A stretch of 33,929 nt of DNA, from positions 1-33,929 of IMG/VR virus record IMGVR_UViG_3300005581_000065; one strand, 5' to 3'. The stretch comes from a virus. Shown piece by piece: positions 23,559-30,808 of this stretch. Within the stretch, counting starts at the first letter, position 1. Each line of letters opens with the position of its first letter. A program made the translations under genes and the position numbers. Under the pieces are notes generated by a model. It did no database searches. It saw only the letters and a program-made list of their open reading frames with translations, and was not told the DNA's origin.

Positions 23559-25355
23559 TTACACCTTTATGTCGCTATAGTCTCGACTTTTTCGTTGGCT
23601 ACTAAACGGGGTGTGCACAGCTGGAGAGGAGTCGCTGTCATTTGTAATGTTTGCCATTGGATCAGAAATATCATATAGTCTCATTTTAGAAAGGTCAATG
23701 CCAACAGTAAACCGTTTATTTGTTGTGGGGTCATTATATCTATTCTTTAGCTGTTTGACCATAATCTGATTCATCTTATCAAGTTGCTCGGTGCGTATAA
23801 ATGCAAGCATGAGGTCGGCAGTAGCCGGCAATCCGAAACTTTCTGAGGTGTCAGTAATTTCGACATCCGACGAATTAAATCCCCCACGAGTAACTTGAGT
23901 CGCGCTCCAAATTGGAACATTAAACTCCACGGCAAGTCCACGAAGTTCTTCAGCAATACTCTTAATAAAGCTATAGGTATTAACACTTCCACTTAATCCT
24001 TTAATTCGCGAACTTGCACAAATATTAAGATAATCAACATAGACAATATCAGGCTCAAACTTCTTTTTAAGTTTTAGTTCAAGTAGCAATGCGCGAAAGT
24101 GACCAACATGTGCAGCTGCTGTAGGATATTCCTTCACGATTAGTTTACCACGGGTACGTTTAGACACGCCTTCTACTTTAGACTTAAATTCATGCTGAGA
24201 GAGATCTTTAATCTTATCAATACGAATATCAAGTAGATTTGCATCAATACGTTCTGCGATCTTTTCTTCAGCCATTTCAAGCGTAATATAGAGTACATTT
24301 CGCCCTTGAGCAAGGGCTGCAGACGCCATATGACACATTCCAAGACTTTTGCCGCAACCAGTATTATGCGAAGAAACTCCATCAGTATAATAACGGTGAT
24401 TTTCATGATCAACTGTGATATCTACAATTGGAATTTGCTTTCCAGTTTTCGTAACGATACCAATTTGATACCCGTCTTCAGTTAAGTATTCTTGTTTTTT
24501 ATGTACGAGATCTTTAGCATATTGCCAACCATCAACGGTTTCAAACAAATGATTTTCATTAACTCTGATAACTTTGCCGCTATTGAGAAGTAGAATATAC
24601 TCTTCCCACATTCCTTTATCAACGAATGCTGATACTGGAACAAATCCATCTGGAGAATCTACTTCTATAGTATATCCTTCATTTAGCAAAGTTTCAACTT
24701 CTTTAATTTTAATAGTTTCCACTTTGCAATTTGAATGTCTTACTCGAATTGGAGTCTCAGGGTGAACACAACCAGCGAGGATAATATTTAACGTTTTACG
24801 AGGTATGCCGCCACCAGTAATTGTGTTAAACATTTCCAAGTCAAATGGAATTTTATCCTCAGTCTTGTGATAAAACTCATATCTCTGATTTATATTTTCG
24901 AGATAGTCATGACCTACATTTGTATCAAACGTTACGCTTAGTGCCTTACTAAGTATGCTTGGAATTGCTCCTTCAGCCTGGTCTGGGGAGCGACCATCAA
25001 TAATAGAAACTGCCTCTATAATCGCGAGATGAACTGCGCGGTCTTTACACCACTTTTCCGTCTGCGTTAGCAGCCACTCGTGCTCTACAGAATAATTCTC
25101 GTTTAGTGTAGTAATTGTGTGGGCAATCGCGCCAGAGTCTCCACGATTAACATGCTCAGACTGTTGAAACTCGATTGCAAGTGCTGAAGAGTTTGGTAAC
25201 TTATTATACTTTGTAATAAATTGTAGTACGAGGCCGTATATTGCTTTATGATGCCCTTCAAAATATTCTGGTTTTAGGTGTGGTAATGTTTTACGACAAA
25301 ATGGTTCGTTGTTTACTAAATTTTTAATTATGATGTCTTGAAGGCTATTCTCCAT
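23559..25355 (-). CDS. 41: replicative DNA helicase gp41 (DnaB family) containing an intein
   Basis: Hexameric helicase that unwinds the replication fork and partners the primase. The ORF codes 598 residues, but residues 196-331 are an intein; the spliced enzyme would be 462 residues, close to T4 gp41 (475). Splicing joins NIILAG to TGCGKSLG, rebuilding Walker A. Walker B is DIVYVDYLNIC, and the C-terminal KQLKNRYNDP is typical of the family. Until the intein leaves, the ATP site is split and the helicase should be inactive. The start overlaps the previous gene by 11 nt, and an internal promoter lies near 25,490. Confidence 0.95.
   Translation of the reverse strand: MENSLQDIIIKNLVNNEPFCRKTLPHLKPEYFEGHHKAIYGLVLQFITKYNKLPNSSALAIEFQQSEHVNRGDSGAIAHTITTLNENYSVEHEWLLTQTEKWCKDRAVHLAIIEAVSIIDGRSPDQAEGAIPSILSKALSVTFDTNVGHDYLENINQRYEFYHKTEDKIPFDLEMFNTITGGGIPRKTLNIILAGCVHPETPIRVRHSNCKVETIKIKEVETLLNEGYTIEVDSPDGFVPVSAFVDKGMWEEYILLLNSGKVIRVNENHLFETVDGWQYAKDLVHKKQEYLTEDGYQIGIVTKTGKQIPIVDITVDHENHRYYTDGVSSHNTGCGKSLGMCHMASAALAQGRNVLYITLEMAEEKIAERIDANLLDIRIDKIKDLSQHEFKSKVEGVSKRTRGKLIVKEYPTAAAHVGHFRALLLELKLKKKFEPDIVYVDYLNICASSRIKGLSGSVNTYSFIKSIAEELRGLAVEFNVPIWSATQVTRGGFNSSDVEITDTSESFGLPATADLMLAFIRTEQLDKMNQIMVKQLKNRYNDPTTNKRFTVGIDLSKMRLYDISDPMANITNDSDSSPAVHTPFSSQRKSRDYSDIKV
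24363..24770 (-). other. 136-residue mini-intein in the helicase Walker A motif
   Basis: It starts with Cys (CVHPETPIRV) and ends GVSSHN before Thr. Block B resembles VNENHLFETVDGWQYAKDL, and block F is IVDITVDHENHRYYTDGV. No LAGLIDADG or HNH endonuclease is present, so it is a minimal splicing element. The last two residues His-Asn are standard, and the +1 nucleophile is Thr. Confidence 0.9.
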
Positions 25356-25671
25356 GTTTTCCTATTTTGTATTCTTGATTTGAAAGTATATCAGACAATA
25401 CGTCTCCAATGTAATTTTTAAAGACGCTGTCGCGATGTAAAGATTCTTTGCTATGCTTCTCTGTTGTAGATATTATATTATATGCATACGATAATGTACA
25501 CACGTCTTTTTGCGAGTCTTCATTTAGTTTTATTTTTGCATACTTGTATACTGTGCCAACATACGGCCCACTAACGAGTCGTATTGCATACACCTTATCA
25601 TTTGTTGAGTCGTCTACAAATATATAGTCAGTTATTTCGCTTGGCATAAATTTAGTCGCATGAATTTCCAT
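25345..25671 (-). CDS. hypothetical protein between oxygenase and gp41, 108 residues
   Basis: Not recognised. The first half looks beta-rich (SEITDYIFVDDSTNDKVYAI, then GPYVGTVYKYAKIKL); the second half is helical (ESLHRDSVFKNYIGDVLSDI). It overlaps the oxygenase end by 20 nt and the helicase start by 11 nt, so translation is tightly coupled. It contains the promoter that may drive gp41. A helicase-loading or accessory role is only suggested by location. Confidence 0.7.
   Translation of the reverse strand: MEIHATKFMPSEITDYIFVDDSTNDKVYAIRLVSGPYVGTVYKYAKIKLNEDSQKDVCTLSYAYNIISTTEKHSKESLHRDSVFKNYIGDVLSDILSNQEYKIGKHGE
25472..25500 (-). promoter_or_regulatory. internal sigma70-like promoter ahead of gp41
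   Basis: Minus strand TGTACA (25,500-25,495), 17-bp spacer, perfect TATAAT (25,477-25,472), the same layout as the intergenic early promoters. It is inside gene 25345-25671, about 110 nt before the helicase start. Confidence 0.62.
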
Positions 25672-26251
25672 ACTTCTGTGGCAACCAGACGTATGATGAA
25701 ATTACATATTTGGGGTTAGAGATTGGAGTCGCTCCTTTATGTGGATACATATAGTAGGGCGGAAAACATAACACATTGCCGGCTTCTGGCTTTATAGCAA
25801 TCTCGGTACCAATATCAAACAGGGTCTCGCCGCCCTCAGCTACGTCATTAAGGTACCAAAACATTACAACTGCGCGCTTGCTTGATGGAACATCGCAGTG
25901 ATCAGTATGCCAATCAAATATACCAGTTCCAGGTTCATACCGTTTTATACGCGGTGCCTCGTAATCTTTTAGAGGTTCATAACATGGCAGTCTGTCACGC
26001 AGTATATTACATGTCTTTTCTAGGTAATGGTTATTTACAGCAGACATCAATGCTCCCATCGGGGCCCTGAACTCTTCAAACCCCGGGTGGTCGAGCATAT
26101 TAATCTCGTCAAAATCGAGAATCTTATTTTTACGACGCACCTTTAGCGGGTCATTTTCTGATATTGAATCATATCGAGAGATCAAAGCCTGACACATATC
26201 AAGGGGCATTGCGCCCCTCAATAGGAGTATATAGTCAGCCAGGGTTTTCAT
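25652..26251 (-). CDS. 2-oxoglutarate/Fe(II) oxygenase (prolyl-4-hydroxylase-like)
   Basis: A 199-residue non-haem iron dioxygenase. The facial triad is His115 and Asp117 in FDWHTDHCD and His171 in YMYPHKGATP; Lys181 replaces the usual 2-oxoglutarate-binding Arg. The strands RAVVMFWYLND, EGGETLF and IKPEAGNVLCFPP are typical of the P4H branch. Substrate unknown: protein or nucleic acid. The frame is open to 26,287, but the ATG at 26,251 follows the UvsX-C stop at once, whereas the longer form overlaps it. Such oxygenases are frequent in marine T4-like phages. Confidence 0.9.
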   Translation of the reverse strand: MKTLADYILLLRGAMPLDMCQALISRYDSISENDPLKVRRKNKILDFDEINMLDHPGFEEFRAPMGALMSAVNNHYLEKTCNILRDRLPCYEPLKDYEAPRIKRYEPGTGIFDWHTDHCDVPSSKRAVVMFWYLNDVAEGGETLFDIGTEIAIKPEAGNVLCFPPYYMYPHKGATPISNPKYVISSYVWLPQKYGNSCD

Positions 26252-26252
26252 A

Positions 26253-26783
26253 TTATTCGGCATCGCCAACCTCTTCAACGCCGTCACTAATCATGTCTCG
26301 CAGTCCAATCGTATATTTTTTCTTAATATGCGCAGCAAATGTAGTTTTAGTAAACACAGTTTCCCAAAATTCCTTTGTCATTGTTTGTGCCGCGCGGGTA
26401 TTTCCAGTCAATTCAGTTTTTGTTGCGGGATCATAGGCGACATACCAACCATTTTTAGGCTTAATTACAAACCCCCCTTCCGTGGCAATATCAAGTAGGC
26501 CACTCCATTTTTGGACGCCACCTTCCCAACTTACGCTAATTGGAATCTTACTTTTTTCTTTTACAAACCGAGACTTTTCAACATTAATAATAAAGTGATA
26601 CCCTTGGATTTCAGTGCCATCTTTATCTTGTTGACGACCAATAATCCAAACATTGTCGGCACTATACATAATTCCGGTATTTGATACCACAAGCCCATTA
26701 CTAAGAACATATTCATGATTTCCCGCAACGGTTATGTCATAGACTTTTTTCTTACCTACTTTAGTTATTGATTTTAGTTTCAT
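26253..26783 (-). CDS. uvsX: UvsX recombinase, C-terminal half with C-intein
   Basis: The second gene of a fractured uvsX. Residues 1-35 are the C-part of a split intein, MKLKSITKVGKKKVYDITVA through NGLVVSN; residues from Thr36 are the UvsX C-extein (TGIMYSADNVWIIGRQQDKD), which directly continues the N-half ending KAVVSGG. After trans-splicing the recombinase would be 211 + 141 = 352 residues. UvsX coats ssDNA and performs strand exchange in recombination-dependent replication. The ATG overlaps the last 23 nt of the HNH gene in another frame. The penultimate intein residue is Ser, not the usual His. Confidence 0.94.
   Translation of the reverse strand: MKLKSITKVGKKKVYDITVAGNHEYVLSNGLVVSNTGIMYSADNVWIIGRQQDKDGTEIQGYHFIINVEKSRFVKEKSKIPISVSWEGGVQKWSGLLDIATEGGFVIKPKNGWYVAYDPATKTELTGNTRAAQTMTKEFWETVFTKTTFAAHIKKKYTIGLRDMISDGVEEVGDAE
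26679..26783 (-). other. C-terminal fragment of split intein (35 residues)
   Basis: Block F, VYDITVAGNHEYVLSNGL, and the terminal VVSN precede Thr+1 of UvsX. It pairs with the N-fragment at 27,676-27,951. It has its own ATG. Confidence 0.9.
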
Positions 26784-27630
26784 TGTATATTTTTCTAATT
26801 TGATGCTTCGTTAAATTTAAATCGAGTTGAGCCTGACGTAATGATTTGTATTCTTTTCCCTTTATTGTTATTCTTATTGCCTTTTTGCCCGTTTTTCTAA
26901 TTTTTGATGAATCTATATAAACACCTGTTTCTTTATACTTACAGTTATCATTATGCCAACGAATAATGTTAGATAATCCTGTTGTCTTTAAACCACAATG
27001 TTTACATTCATATCTTTTTCCATTTTCTTTTACTGATAATGAATATGGGTTGACCCATTCATCCATATTATATAATATTAAATCGGTTTTGTAAATACGA
27101 ATTGTTTCATTTGTATGAATGTTTTTAAGCATCATCATACCTTTTCTCCCCATTTTCTTTTTCTGTTCTTCTGATTTTGGAACACCCTTAAATATAGCTG
27201 AAACTAATTTTTTATGTTCTTCGGTACAAATTCGACCTGAATTTTTTTCCGAAATTTTTCTTTTAGTTTCATCGCTATGTTTTTTACCATAAAAATTATT
27301 ACCCGAACCTTTCATAGTTTCTTTTAATGCTTCAATATGAGCTTTTTTAGCAATTTCATATTGAGTAGTAGTTACATTTCTTTCTTGACCCGAACTGCAT
27401 CTTAACATTGAAAAGAATGCATGTGCAAGTTGCGGTGTTCTATAATGTTTCCACAATAACTGATGCGCTAAAAAATGTTCACGAAAAGATAATCTTATAA
27501 TATTAGATTGATCATCATTTCCACCCAAACATCTTGGTATTATATGATGATTTTCACCGTATTCGGATTTACTTAATGGTGTATTTTTTCTTTTTTCGAT
27601 TAAATTGTTGTATATTTTAATATGATCCAT
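26761..27630 (-). CDS. free-standing HNH homing endonuclease inside fractured uvsX
   Basis: A 289-residue HNH enzyme. ENHHIIPRCLGG (26-37) and Asn43 form the HNH core; two or three NUMOD3-like motifs follow (GKKHSDETKRKISEKNSG, TEEHKKLVSAIFKG), then a zinc-knuckle-like C-HCG...HNDNC element (209-230) and a C-terminal NUMOD1-like helix pair (KEYKSLRQAQLDLNLTKHQI). It should cut alleles lacking the insertion and spread the fracture. The AT-rich, Lys/Asn-rich codon use differs from uvsX on either side. A perfect TATAAATA box ends 6 nt before its ATG. It belongs to neither half of the intein. Confidence 0.93.
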   Translation of the reverse strand: MDHIKIYNNLIEKRKNTPLSKSEYGENHHIIPRCLGGNDDQSNIIRLSFREHFLAHQLLWKHYRTPQLAHAFFSMLRCSSGQERNVTTTQYEIAKKAHIEALKETMKGSGNNFYGKKHSDETKRKISEKNSGRICTEEHKKLVSAIFKGVPKSEEQKKKMGRKGMMMLKNIHTNETIRIYKTDLILYNMDEWVNPYSLSVKENGKRYECKHCGLKTTGLSNIIRWHNDNCKYKETGVYIDSSKIRKTGKKAIRITIKGKEYKSLRQAQLDLNLTKHQIRKIYNETKINN

Positions 27631-27636
27631 ATAACC

Positions 27637-27644
27637 TATTTATA
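27637..27644 (-). promoter_or_regulatory. T4-late-like box TATAAATA for the HNH endonuclease
   Basis: Perfect octamer in the 42-nt gap between uvsX-N and the HNH gene, then GGTTAT and ATG. In T4, td-intron I-TevI is also known to be expressed from a late promoter just upstream. Confidence 0.68.
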
Positions 27645-27672
27645 TAACAGATAACATCTGGATCAAAATATT

Positions 27673-28584
27673 TTAAATAATGTCACATTCAATGCCAACG
27701 GTAAGATCCTGTGCTTGAACCCACTGACCATTAACAGCAAATGGGTGAGTATCAGAGCAAACAACCTTATGTCCATCTTCAAATTCCAATTCGTAACAAT
27801 CTGGCTCTCCTTCCAACAGAGTATCCGGATCCCAAGTATGAGTGACATCTCGCACACCATCACGAGTAATCACAAGATCACCAACCACAATTTCATTAAT
27901 TGGTTTATTGGTACCATCGGCAAAACGAACTAGTGTTCCTTCTTCAAAGCAGCCACCAGACACCACTGCTTTGCTAAACATTTCTTGAGTCTGATAGGTA
28001 TGGTTAATTGCAAGAAGTGGAATGTTTTTCATTGTCAGGTATGGAGTTACCATACGAAACAATCCTTTGAGTGCTTTGGCGCGAGTCATATCGGCCACGC
28101 TCTTTTCATTCATTGCATCTTCCAATTCCTTCTTAGAAGCAAGGTTACCAACGCTGTCAATAACAATAATTACCTTGTCCTTACGCTCCATCTGCTCAAG
28201 CTGATTGACAATATCAAATTTGAGTTCTTCAATGTTTTTAATTGGAATATGCAGCACTCGTTTAGTGTCAATACCAAAGCTTTCAAAATATTGCTGAGGC
28301 GAACCAAATTCGCTATCATAAAACATAAGGCAAGCGTCTGGATGTTTTTTGAGGTATGCACCTGCCATAAGCAGCGCAAAGCTCGTCTTAAAGTGCTTTG
28401 ATGGACCAGCAAGTACTGTAAGACCACTTGTTAATCCGCCGTCAATACTGCCACTTAGTGCGACATTAACCATTGGTACGCTTGTACTGGTAATATCTTT
28501 TTCAGCATAAAAGTCGCTATCAGCGAGGACGTCGGCTTCTTTAATTCGGCAATTCTTTTTTAGTTTTTCAAGTACAGATGACAT
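27673..28584 (-). CDS. uvsX: UvsX recombinase, N-terminal half with N-intein
   Basis: Residues 1-211 are UvsX: the phage-type Walker A GPSKHFKTSFA (60-70), Walker B VIIVIDSVGNLAS (138-150), and the L2-side KAVVSGG end. From Cys212 the sequence becomes an N-intein, CFEEGTLVRFADGTNKPINE through SDTHPFAVNGQWVQAQDL, which stops at IECDII. This half cannot act alone because it lacks the C-terminal DNA-binding part; it must splice in trans with the protein from 26253-26783. A sigma70-like promoter lies 20-50 nt upstream. Confidence 0.95.
   Translation of the reverse strand: MSSVLEKLKKNCRIKEADVLADSDFYAEKDITSTSVPMVNVALSGSIDGGLTSGLTVLAGPSKHFKTSFALLMAGAYLKKHPDACLMFYDSEFGSPQQYFESFGIDTKRVLHIPIKNIEELKFDIVNQLEQMERKDKVIIVIDSVGNLASKKELEDAMNEKSVADMTRAKALKGLFRMVTPYLTMKNIPLLAINHTYQTQEMFSKAVVSGGCFEEGTLVRFADGTNKPINEIVVGDLVITRDGVRDVTHTWDPDTLLEGEPDCYELEFEDGHKVVCSDTHPFAVNGQWVQAQDLTVGIECDII
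27676..27951 (-). other. N-terminal fragment of split intein (92 residues)
   Basis: It begins with Cys1 in block A (CFEEGTLV) and has a block B with the conserved T-H pair in SDTHPFAV. The fragment ends in a stop codon instead of continuing into an endonuclease domain. Confidence 0.9.
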
Positions 28585-30178: not shown

Positions 30179-30808
30179 TTATTTTTTATTTTTGCAATTA
30201 TCAAAATGATATCTTGTCATATTTGGACCCTTACCAATTTTATTGCAATGTGGACATTCGACACTATTCCAATTTTTTTTCTTTCCTCTATGTATATTAG
30301 ATAATTTTGTTTTTATTTCTTTAGCAAATTCTTCTCCATGAATTTCTTCATATGTTTTATTAAGATTGTTATTAGAATATTTTTTTAAGCCATGAGTATG
30401 ATCATTTTTCCCAAACATCGGATTATTTTCTCCACTCATTTTTTCAGAATGATCTGGTCTACTTTTTCCTCTAAATCCTTTACCACATTTATATTTTTGT
30501 TCTTCGGATAATTTTTTACCCCACATTCCATTTTTATCTCCGGAAAATGATCCTCCCATTGCTTCATTTTTCATATTATATGACATTGGATCATTTGCCG
30601 CATCATATTCTTTTAATATCATTTCTTCAACAATTCTATAATCTTCTCCAGTATATAGAATTTCTTTTATAAAGGAATCTAATCCATATTTAATTTTAGC
30701 TTTAGCGAATAGTAAACCGCTTCCAGAATAATATGGTTTATTTCCATTATGACTTCCTATGTACCATTTTCCCGTATGTTTATTTGTGTATTTGTAAACG
30801 TATCCCAT
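30179..30808 (-). CDS. GIY-YIG homing endonuclease (Seg-like)
   Basis: A 209-residue free-standing homing enzyme. GYVY (2-5) and WYIG (15-18) form the GIY-YIG core. NUMOD3 motifs follow (GKKLSEEQKYKCGKGFRG, DHSEKMSGENNPMFGK), then a C-terminal zinc-knuckle-like CPHC...HFDNC element (about 187-205), almost the same as in the HNH gene within uvsX. Codons are much more AT-rich than neighbours. It is inserted between gp42 and the small basic gene and has its own TATAAATA box 6 nt before its ATG. Confidence 0.93.
   Translation of the reverse strand: MGYVYKYTNKHTGKWYIGSHNGNKPYYSGSGLLFAKAKIKYGLDSFIKEILYTGEDYRIVEEMILKEYDAANDPMSYNMKNEAMGGSFSGDKNGMWGKKLSEEQKYKCGKGFRGKSRPDHSEKMSGENNPMFGKNDHTHGLKKYSNNNLNKTYEEIHGEEFAKEIKTKLSNIHRGKKKNWNSVECPHCNKIGKGPNMTRYHFDNCKNKK

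Follow-up and report, generated by a model that had tools for sequence, protein, structure and literature searches.

A phage uvsX gene fractured by a split intein and an HNH endonuclease gene, with re-fused relatives

The split intein of Npu DnaE derives from a cyanobacterial chromosomal gene whose halves lie far apart, with no endonuclease. A different arrangement is said to have been described in phages by Dassa et al. 2009: genes for DNA metabolism, reportedly encoding eight enzymes, are broken by a split intein whose two parts flank an endonuclease gene, the nuclease being of a Vsr-like type and control elements arriving with its gene. In Pseudomonas phage MIJ3, polB is split and a split intein and an HNH endonuclease open reading frame (ORF) lie between the halves (PMC6892783), and in T4 the GIY-YIG endonuclease SegA cuts uvsX (PMC2988022). 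Here we analyse a viral sequence of 33,929 nucleotides (nt), IMG/VR record IMGVR_UViG_3300005581_000065 (hereafter the window), in which the gene for the UvsX recombinase is itself divided into two genes, each carrying one fragment of an intein, with an HNH homing endonuclease gene between them. We consider it very probable that this is a fractured uvsX, interrupted at a GG|T site by an intein split at the canonical position, whose two products are trans-spliced into one UvsX and whose cassette homes.

All genes of the split locus lie on the minus strand. The RecA-like product of uvsX-N (27673-28584, 303 amino acids (aa)) reads ...KAVVSGG|CFEEGT...IECDII-stop. Its first 211 residues (27952-28584) form a RecA-like ATPase core that ends in KAVVSGG and matches Pfam RecA (6.1e-9) and the UvsX-like PHROG 97; the next 92 residues (27676-27951), from Cys1 to IECDII and the stop codon at 27673-27675, match Hint families and make up the intein N-fragment. 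Downstream lies the endonuclease gene (26761-27630, 289 aa; PHROG 655 homing endonuclease, 8.5e-54; NUMOD3, 6.6e-10), preceded by a T4-type late promoter box, TATAAATA, at 27637-27644, 14 nt upstream of its ATG. By ORF coordinates its 3′ end overlaps the start of uvsX-C by 23 nt (26761-26783). The product of uvsX-C (26253-26783, 176 aa) reads MKLKS...GLVVSN|TGIMYS... and starts at its own ATG with a 35-aa intein C-fragment (26679-26783, MKLKS...GLVVSN; Pfam Intein_splicing, 9e-4; NCBIfam intein_Cterm, 9.4e-7), followed by the C-extein (26256-26678, residues 212-352 of the spliced protein, stop codon at 26253-26255), which begins TGIMYSADN and matches Pfam T4_UVSX_C (1.9e-12). The break falls between G211 and T212, and the exteins of 211 and 141 residues add up to the spliced length of 352 aa given in the first-pass annotation, which had described each of these parts as found here: an N-half ending in KAVVSGG, Cys1 of an intein fragment and a stop; a complete HNH gene with its own late box; and a C-half with its own start, an intein fragment, Thr and the remainder of UvsX. 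Joined, the halves give a complete protein with a RecA core and a T4 UvsX C-terminal domain. The insertion site aligns with GG|T in T4 UvsX and GG|K in mycobacterial RecA; we take the GG site in RecA to be the end of the L2 DNA-binding loop.

An uninterrupted allele defines the insertion exactly. The intact uvsX at L121 (related loci carry L numbers throughout), which as a query matches T4 UvsX 3io5 at 9e-114, aligns with the window at 89-90% nt identity for about 2 kb to either side, with an insertion gap of 0 and an identical junction peptide, so that no extein residue is lost at G211/T. Its product is 98% identical in amino acids to the N-extein of the window and, in a UvsX tree, is the nearest row to the window, before other intein carriers.

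Because the window comes from one metagenome contig, the split could be suspected of being an artefact of assembly or sequencing. In this region L018 is identical to it, and the diverged loci L019-L023, from five other metagenomes, share the split with an endonuclease 82% identical in amino acids; in all, the stop is present in contigs from six other metagenomes. Isolated T4-like phages show the same arrangement in no fewer than 25 GenBank records, found by tblastn in the phage collection with both halves and intein fragments (93-100% N-half coverage); they include Proteus phages Pm5461 and PM2, Salmonella phages CF-SP2 and SEA1, Klebsiella phage Lion_ER11, Enterobacter phage EnC07, Pseudomonas phage PspYZU05, coliphages such as HY03, Shewanella phage Thanatos-1, Yersinia phage TG1 and Vibrio phages. 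Independent contigs and isolates thus rule out an error, whose probability we put as negligible. An intact uvsX elsewhere, which would undercut the first-pass reading, did not appear: the window record, a 33.9-kb fragment, gave a single match, ten related records of up to 143 kb hold one UvsX each and no other, and the listed split-bearing isolates have one N-half place per record and no extra N-half. No near relative turned up when the phage collection was searched by nucleotide sequence.

The split architecture is therefore widespread and already sequenced in isolated phages, and it is unrecognised in annotation. In IMG/VR, 194 stretches were confirmed as encoding a relative of the intein N-fragment. 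Isolate records list two recombination proteins, often with a 'homing endonuclease' in between, and the papers on Thanatos phages do not mention an intein. PHROG 8337 and PHROG 18112, named 'DNA repair protein' and 'recombinase', are separate families that contain the UvsX halves with their intein fragments.

The inteins have the residues and dimensions of the canonical split class. Cys1, the B-block His69, the terminal Asn (61/61) and a +1 Thr or Ser are kept in all 61 distinct inteins, the +1 residue being Ser once; in the window these are C1, H69, N127 and T+1. Its fragments of 92 and 35 aa compare with about 90-100 aa and about 35 aa for fragments split at the canonical position. Among relatives of solved structure, gp41-1 (4e-8) and Npu DnaE (8e-7) are the closest in sequence, and the naturally contiguous intein of L072 is predicted to adopt a Hint fold (predicted local distance difference test (pLDDT) score of 85) with gp41-1 as its best PDB match, from an alignment without sequences of annotated phage records. 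Comparison of the window with L020 gives a ratio of non-synonymous to synonymous substitution rates (dN/dS) of 0.05 in intein-N and 0.00 in intein-C; the endonuclease has 0.14, and the two exteins 0.04 and 0.08. Every part of the locus is therefore under selection. UvsX is not strictly essential in T4, which would leave room for a decaying pseudogene broken by a selfish endonuclease. Against this, the extein dN/dS is 0.03-0.08 relative to close relatives, whether split or intact, and many phages retain this split; the dN/dS values rule a pseudogene out, and only a very slight probability attaches to it. Together, the intein motifs, the precise empty allele of L121, purifying selection on both fragments and the many homologous loci support the 'fractured gene' interpretation of the first-pass annotation.

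The endonuclease brings its own control elements and appears to be tied to expression of the C-half. It comprises an HNH nuclease domain (approximately residues 1-95), NUMOD3, a C-terminal zinc finger and a helix-turn-helix-like tail. Of 39 distinct loci, 24 have the late-box octamer 5′ of their endonuclease gene, where shuffling predicts 0.8. At L028, L034 and L038 the box lies inside a perfect hairpin, GTAGTATAATAG...CTATTATACTAC, which would mask the ribosome site in early transcripts; a hairpin hiding the ribosome site in early transcripts is known for I-TevI. Among 71 related loci (not deduplicated), 52 have an endonuclease ORF that runs into the start of uvsX-C, usually by 4-32 nt, and in many loci TGT AAA AGG AAA encodes the last zinc-finger residues and serves as the uvsX-C Shine-Dalgarno sequence. 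Judging from this overlap, the end of the endonuclease gene could presumably not be lost without loss of uvsX-C expression, except by re-fusing the reading frame. In the window enzyme, the half that binds DNA matches GIY-YIG enzymes that occupy the same site in relatives (42%, 8e-33), and the nuclease half has no match among them; the endonucleases of the isolates are GIY-YIG-like by YIGS motif or annotation, most with NUMOD3, in contrast to the HNH enzyme of the window. Site-specific conservation of the DNA-binding half is only suggestive, because more distant versions of it occur in endonucleases at other sites.

We envisage that uvsX-N and uvsX-C would be translated apart, the latter probably coupled to the overlapping endonuclease gene. 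The N-fragment is acidic (net charge -15) and the C-fragment basic (+4), opposite charges of the kind expected for fragment association; the two would bind, and splicing in trans, with which the conserved residues and the selection are consistent, would yield one 352-aa UvsX. The endonuclease, probably expressed late from its own box, most likely cuts intein-free uvsX alleles of co-infecting phages, and recombination repair would copy the whole cassette of intein-N, endonuclease and intein-C into the cut gene. Several features of the window weigh against this scheme. The penultimate His of block G, one of the canonical intein residues, is replaced by Ser in three of 61 inteins, those of the window clade, a change that could slow splicing; Npu DnaE, alignable to the window intein, likewise ends in SN, so this His is not strictly defining. 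The HNH domain is recognised weakly by Pfam (0.04). The Shine-Dalgarno sequence of uvsX-C is weak in the window, where translation of the C-half is likelier to depend on coupling across the 23-nt overlap than on this site.

Comparison across loci places the split within an allelic series at one site. The site is empty in L121 and many others. In fractured alleles with a nuclease, the enzyme is of HNH type, GIY-YIG type, a divergent GIY-YIG type (L036, L098) or, at L070, probably Vsr-like by motif (Pfam match, E 0.04). A third group (L024, L033, L043, L051, L053-L055, L087, L089, L090 and L092) is fractured with a decayed endonuclease gene whose 3′ end is retained. Finally, the intein is contiguous in L047/L049, L072, L076, L079 and L080; three of these, L072, L079 and L080, have lost the stop codon and almost all of the endonuclease gene, and their intein reads across GAGGAAATTATG, once the ribosome site and start codon. 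These forms can be very close relatives: the fused L072 matches the split, HNH-bearing L096 at 99.9% on one side and 98.2% on the other, and the fused L080 is 98.6% identical over 5.5 kb to L087, which is split and has no endonuclease. The direction here is from split to fused, since the end of the endonuclease gene persists as a scar in the fused form. At least 23 changes of endonuclease state fall on the UvsX tree, where decayed alleles occupy 10 places and fused alleles 3.

The split thus appears to be one state of a changing locus, with the intein re-fused in some relatives. On balance we favour a living cycle in which an empty site becomes fractured, the nuclease class is swapped with the DNA-binding half kept, the endonuclease decays and the intein is re-fused, so that reversion from split to contiguous recurs in nature. 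In such a cycle a decayed endonuclease gene would leave its 3′ end, as the supplier of a ribosome-binding site and start for the essential C-half, and an in-frame deletion would then make the intein contiguous, with a fossil ribosome site and start codon inside it.

The re-fused alleles also bear on a further explanation, that the two UvsX halves function together without a covalent link, as a recombinase of two subunits in which the intein pieces are relics; NrdA, split in phage Aeh1, and split gp43 function as such two-part enzymes. T4-like phages do have two-polypeptide enzymes split by endonuclease genes (PMC2988022). The re-fused alleles, with DNA nearly the same as that of split ones, need the intein to be excised, or tolerated, in cis; the catalytic residues are invariant and the fragments under strong purifying selection; and the alignment puts the site in register with the DNA-binding loop region, a place where intein tails that stay attached should impede function. 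We therefore hold a two-subunit recombinase to be highly unlikely and prefer trans-splicing to a single UvsX.

Cassettes are exchanged horizontally among phages. Between L084 and L086, intein-N is 97.7% and the endonuclease 98.3% identical in nucleotides, compared with 78% and 67% for the exteins; between L026 and L036, the exteins are 97/93% identical in amino acids and the intein 84/89% identical, and the endonucleases are unrelated. In approximately unbiased (AU) tests, extein data reject a clade of the window, L019 and L024 (p 0.005), and intein data reject a grouping of the window, L019, L026 and L036 without L024 (p 0.015). From the L084/L086 cassette identity and this conflict between intein and extein trees, it follows that cassettes move between phages. 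A first AU test that included L024 did not reject a single clade of the window inteins with those of L026 and L036 (p = 0.66), and we therefore make no claim that these inteins are unrelated; the conflict shows in the narrower tests, which place L024. Co-conversion in L026, considered because identity drops over the 60 nt upstream of the insertion, was dropped: intact L134 has the same flank, which marks it as allelic variation. The empty allele and the cassette exchange are an indirect sign that the endonuclease may cut the intein-less allele and support homing.

Other elements lie near the split gene. The gp41 helicase gene of the window (23559-25355, minus strand) has a contiguous 136-aa intein at Walker A (residues 196-331) without an endonuclease. 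The same intein, 92-99% identical in amino acids, is split near its N-terminal end in L121 (4402-6121) and L134 (3796-6174), with an N-fragment of about 18 aa, a C-fragment with its own ATG, and an insert of about 830 nt in which an HNH-like endonuclease is read in antisense, an atypical split; it is absent in L020, L021, L024, L026, L027 and L122. The idea that the contiguous form in the window is re-fused, from its HSNCK stretch, was dropped for want of good evidence. A 2-oxoglutarate-Fe(II) oxygenase gene (25652-26287, minus strand) would overlap the end of uvsX-C if a GTG start were used. A second homing endonuclease, of GIY-YIG type (30179-30808, minus strand; group I intron endonuclease family, 3.6e-11, plus NUMOD3), adjoins the thymidylate synthase gene, and its C-terminal zinc finger distantly resembles that of the uvsX HNH enzyme (25%).

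UvsX is used for recombination-dependent replication and supports homing itself, and in these phages it is probably made only after two proteins have been joined. With split, endonuclease-less and re-fused forms in near-identical phages, the origin and fate of a split intein become testable on natural alleles, and isolated phages of laboratory grade, such as coliphage HY03, carry the arrangement. The locus is also a source of a family of new orthogonal split inteins, and recognising it corrects database annotation in which UvsX halves stand as two unrelated families.

The locus belongs to the known class of fractured genes; in the library searched, no paper joined uvsX with a split intein and none was relevant for uvsX and intein, although UvsX may have been listed earlier, and the interest lies in the re-fusion series and nuclease exchange. 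As in the fractured genes of Dassa and colleagues, a conserved enzyme gene is broken by a canonical split intein, a free-standing endonuclease gene lies between the intein parts, and control elements are brought with it. The differences are the host gene, uvsX, and the endonucleases, mainly HNH or GIY-YIG enzymes with a common NUMOD3/zinc-finger half, the Vsr-like type being probable at one locus, L070. MIJ3 polB, in an isolated phage, likewise has a split intein and an HNH ORF between its halves, but the host is DNA polymerase B and the intein of Ser1 type. T4 SegA is free-standing beside an uninterrupted uvsX, with no intein. Npu DnaE shares the split site and the C-terminal SN of the window intein. 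The gp41-1 split intein (PDB 6qaz), the closest solved relative in sequence and fold, has the same split site and fragment lengths, yet its host is the gp41 helicase, it is about 24% identical to the modelled relative, and it ends in HN where the window intein ends in SN.
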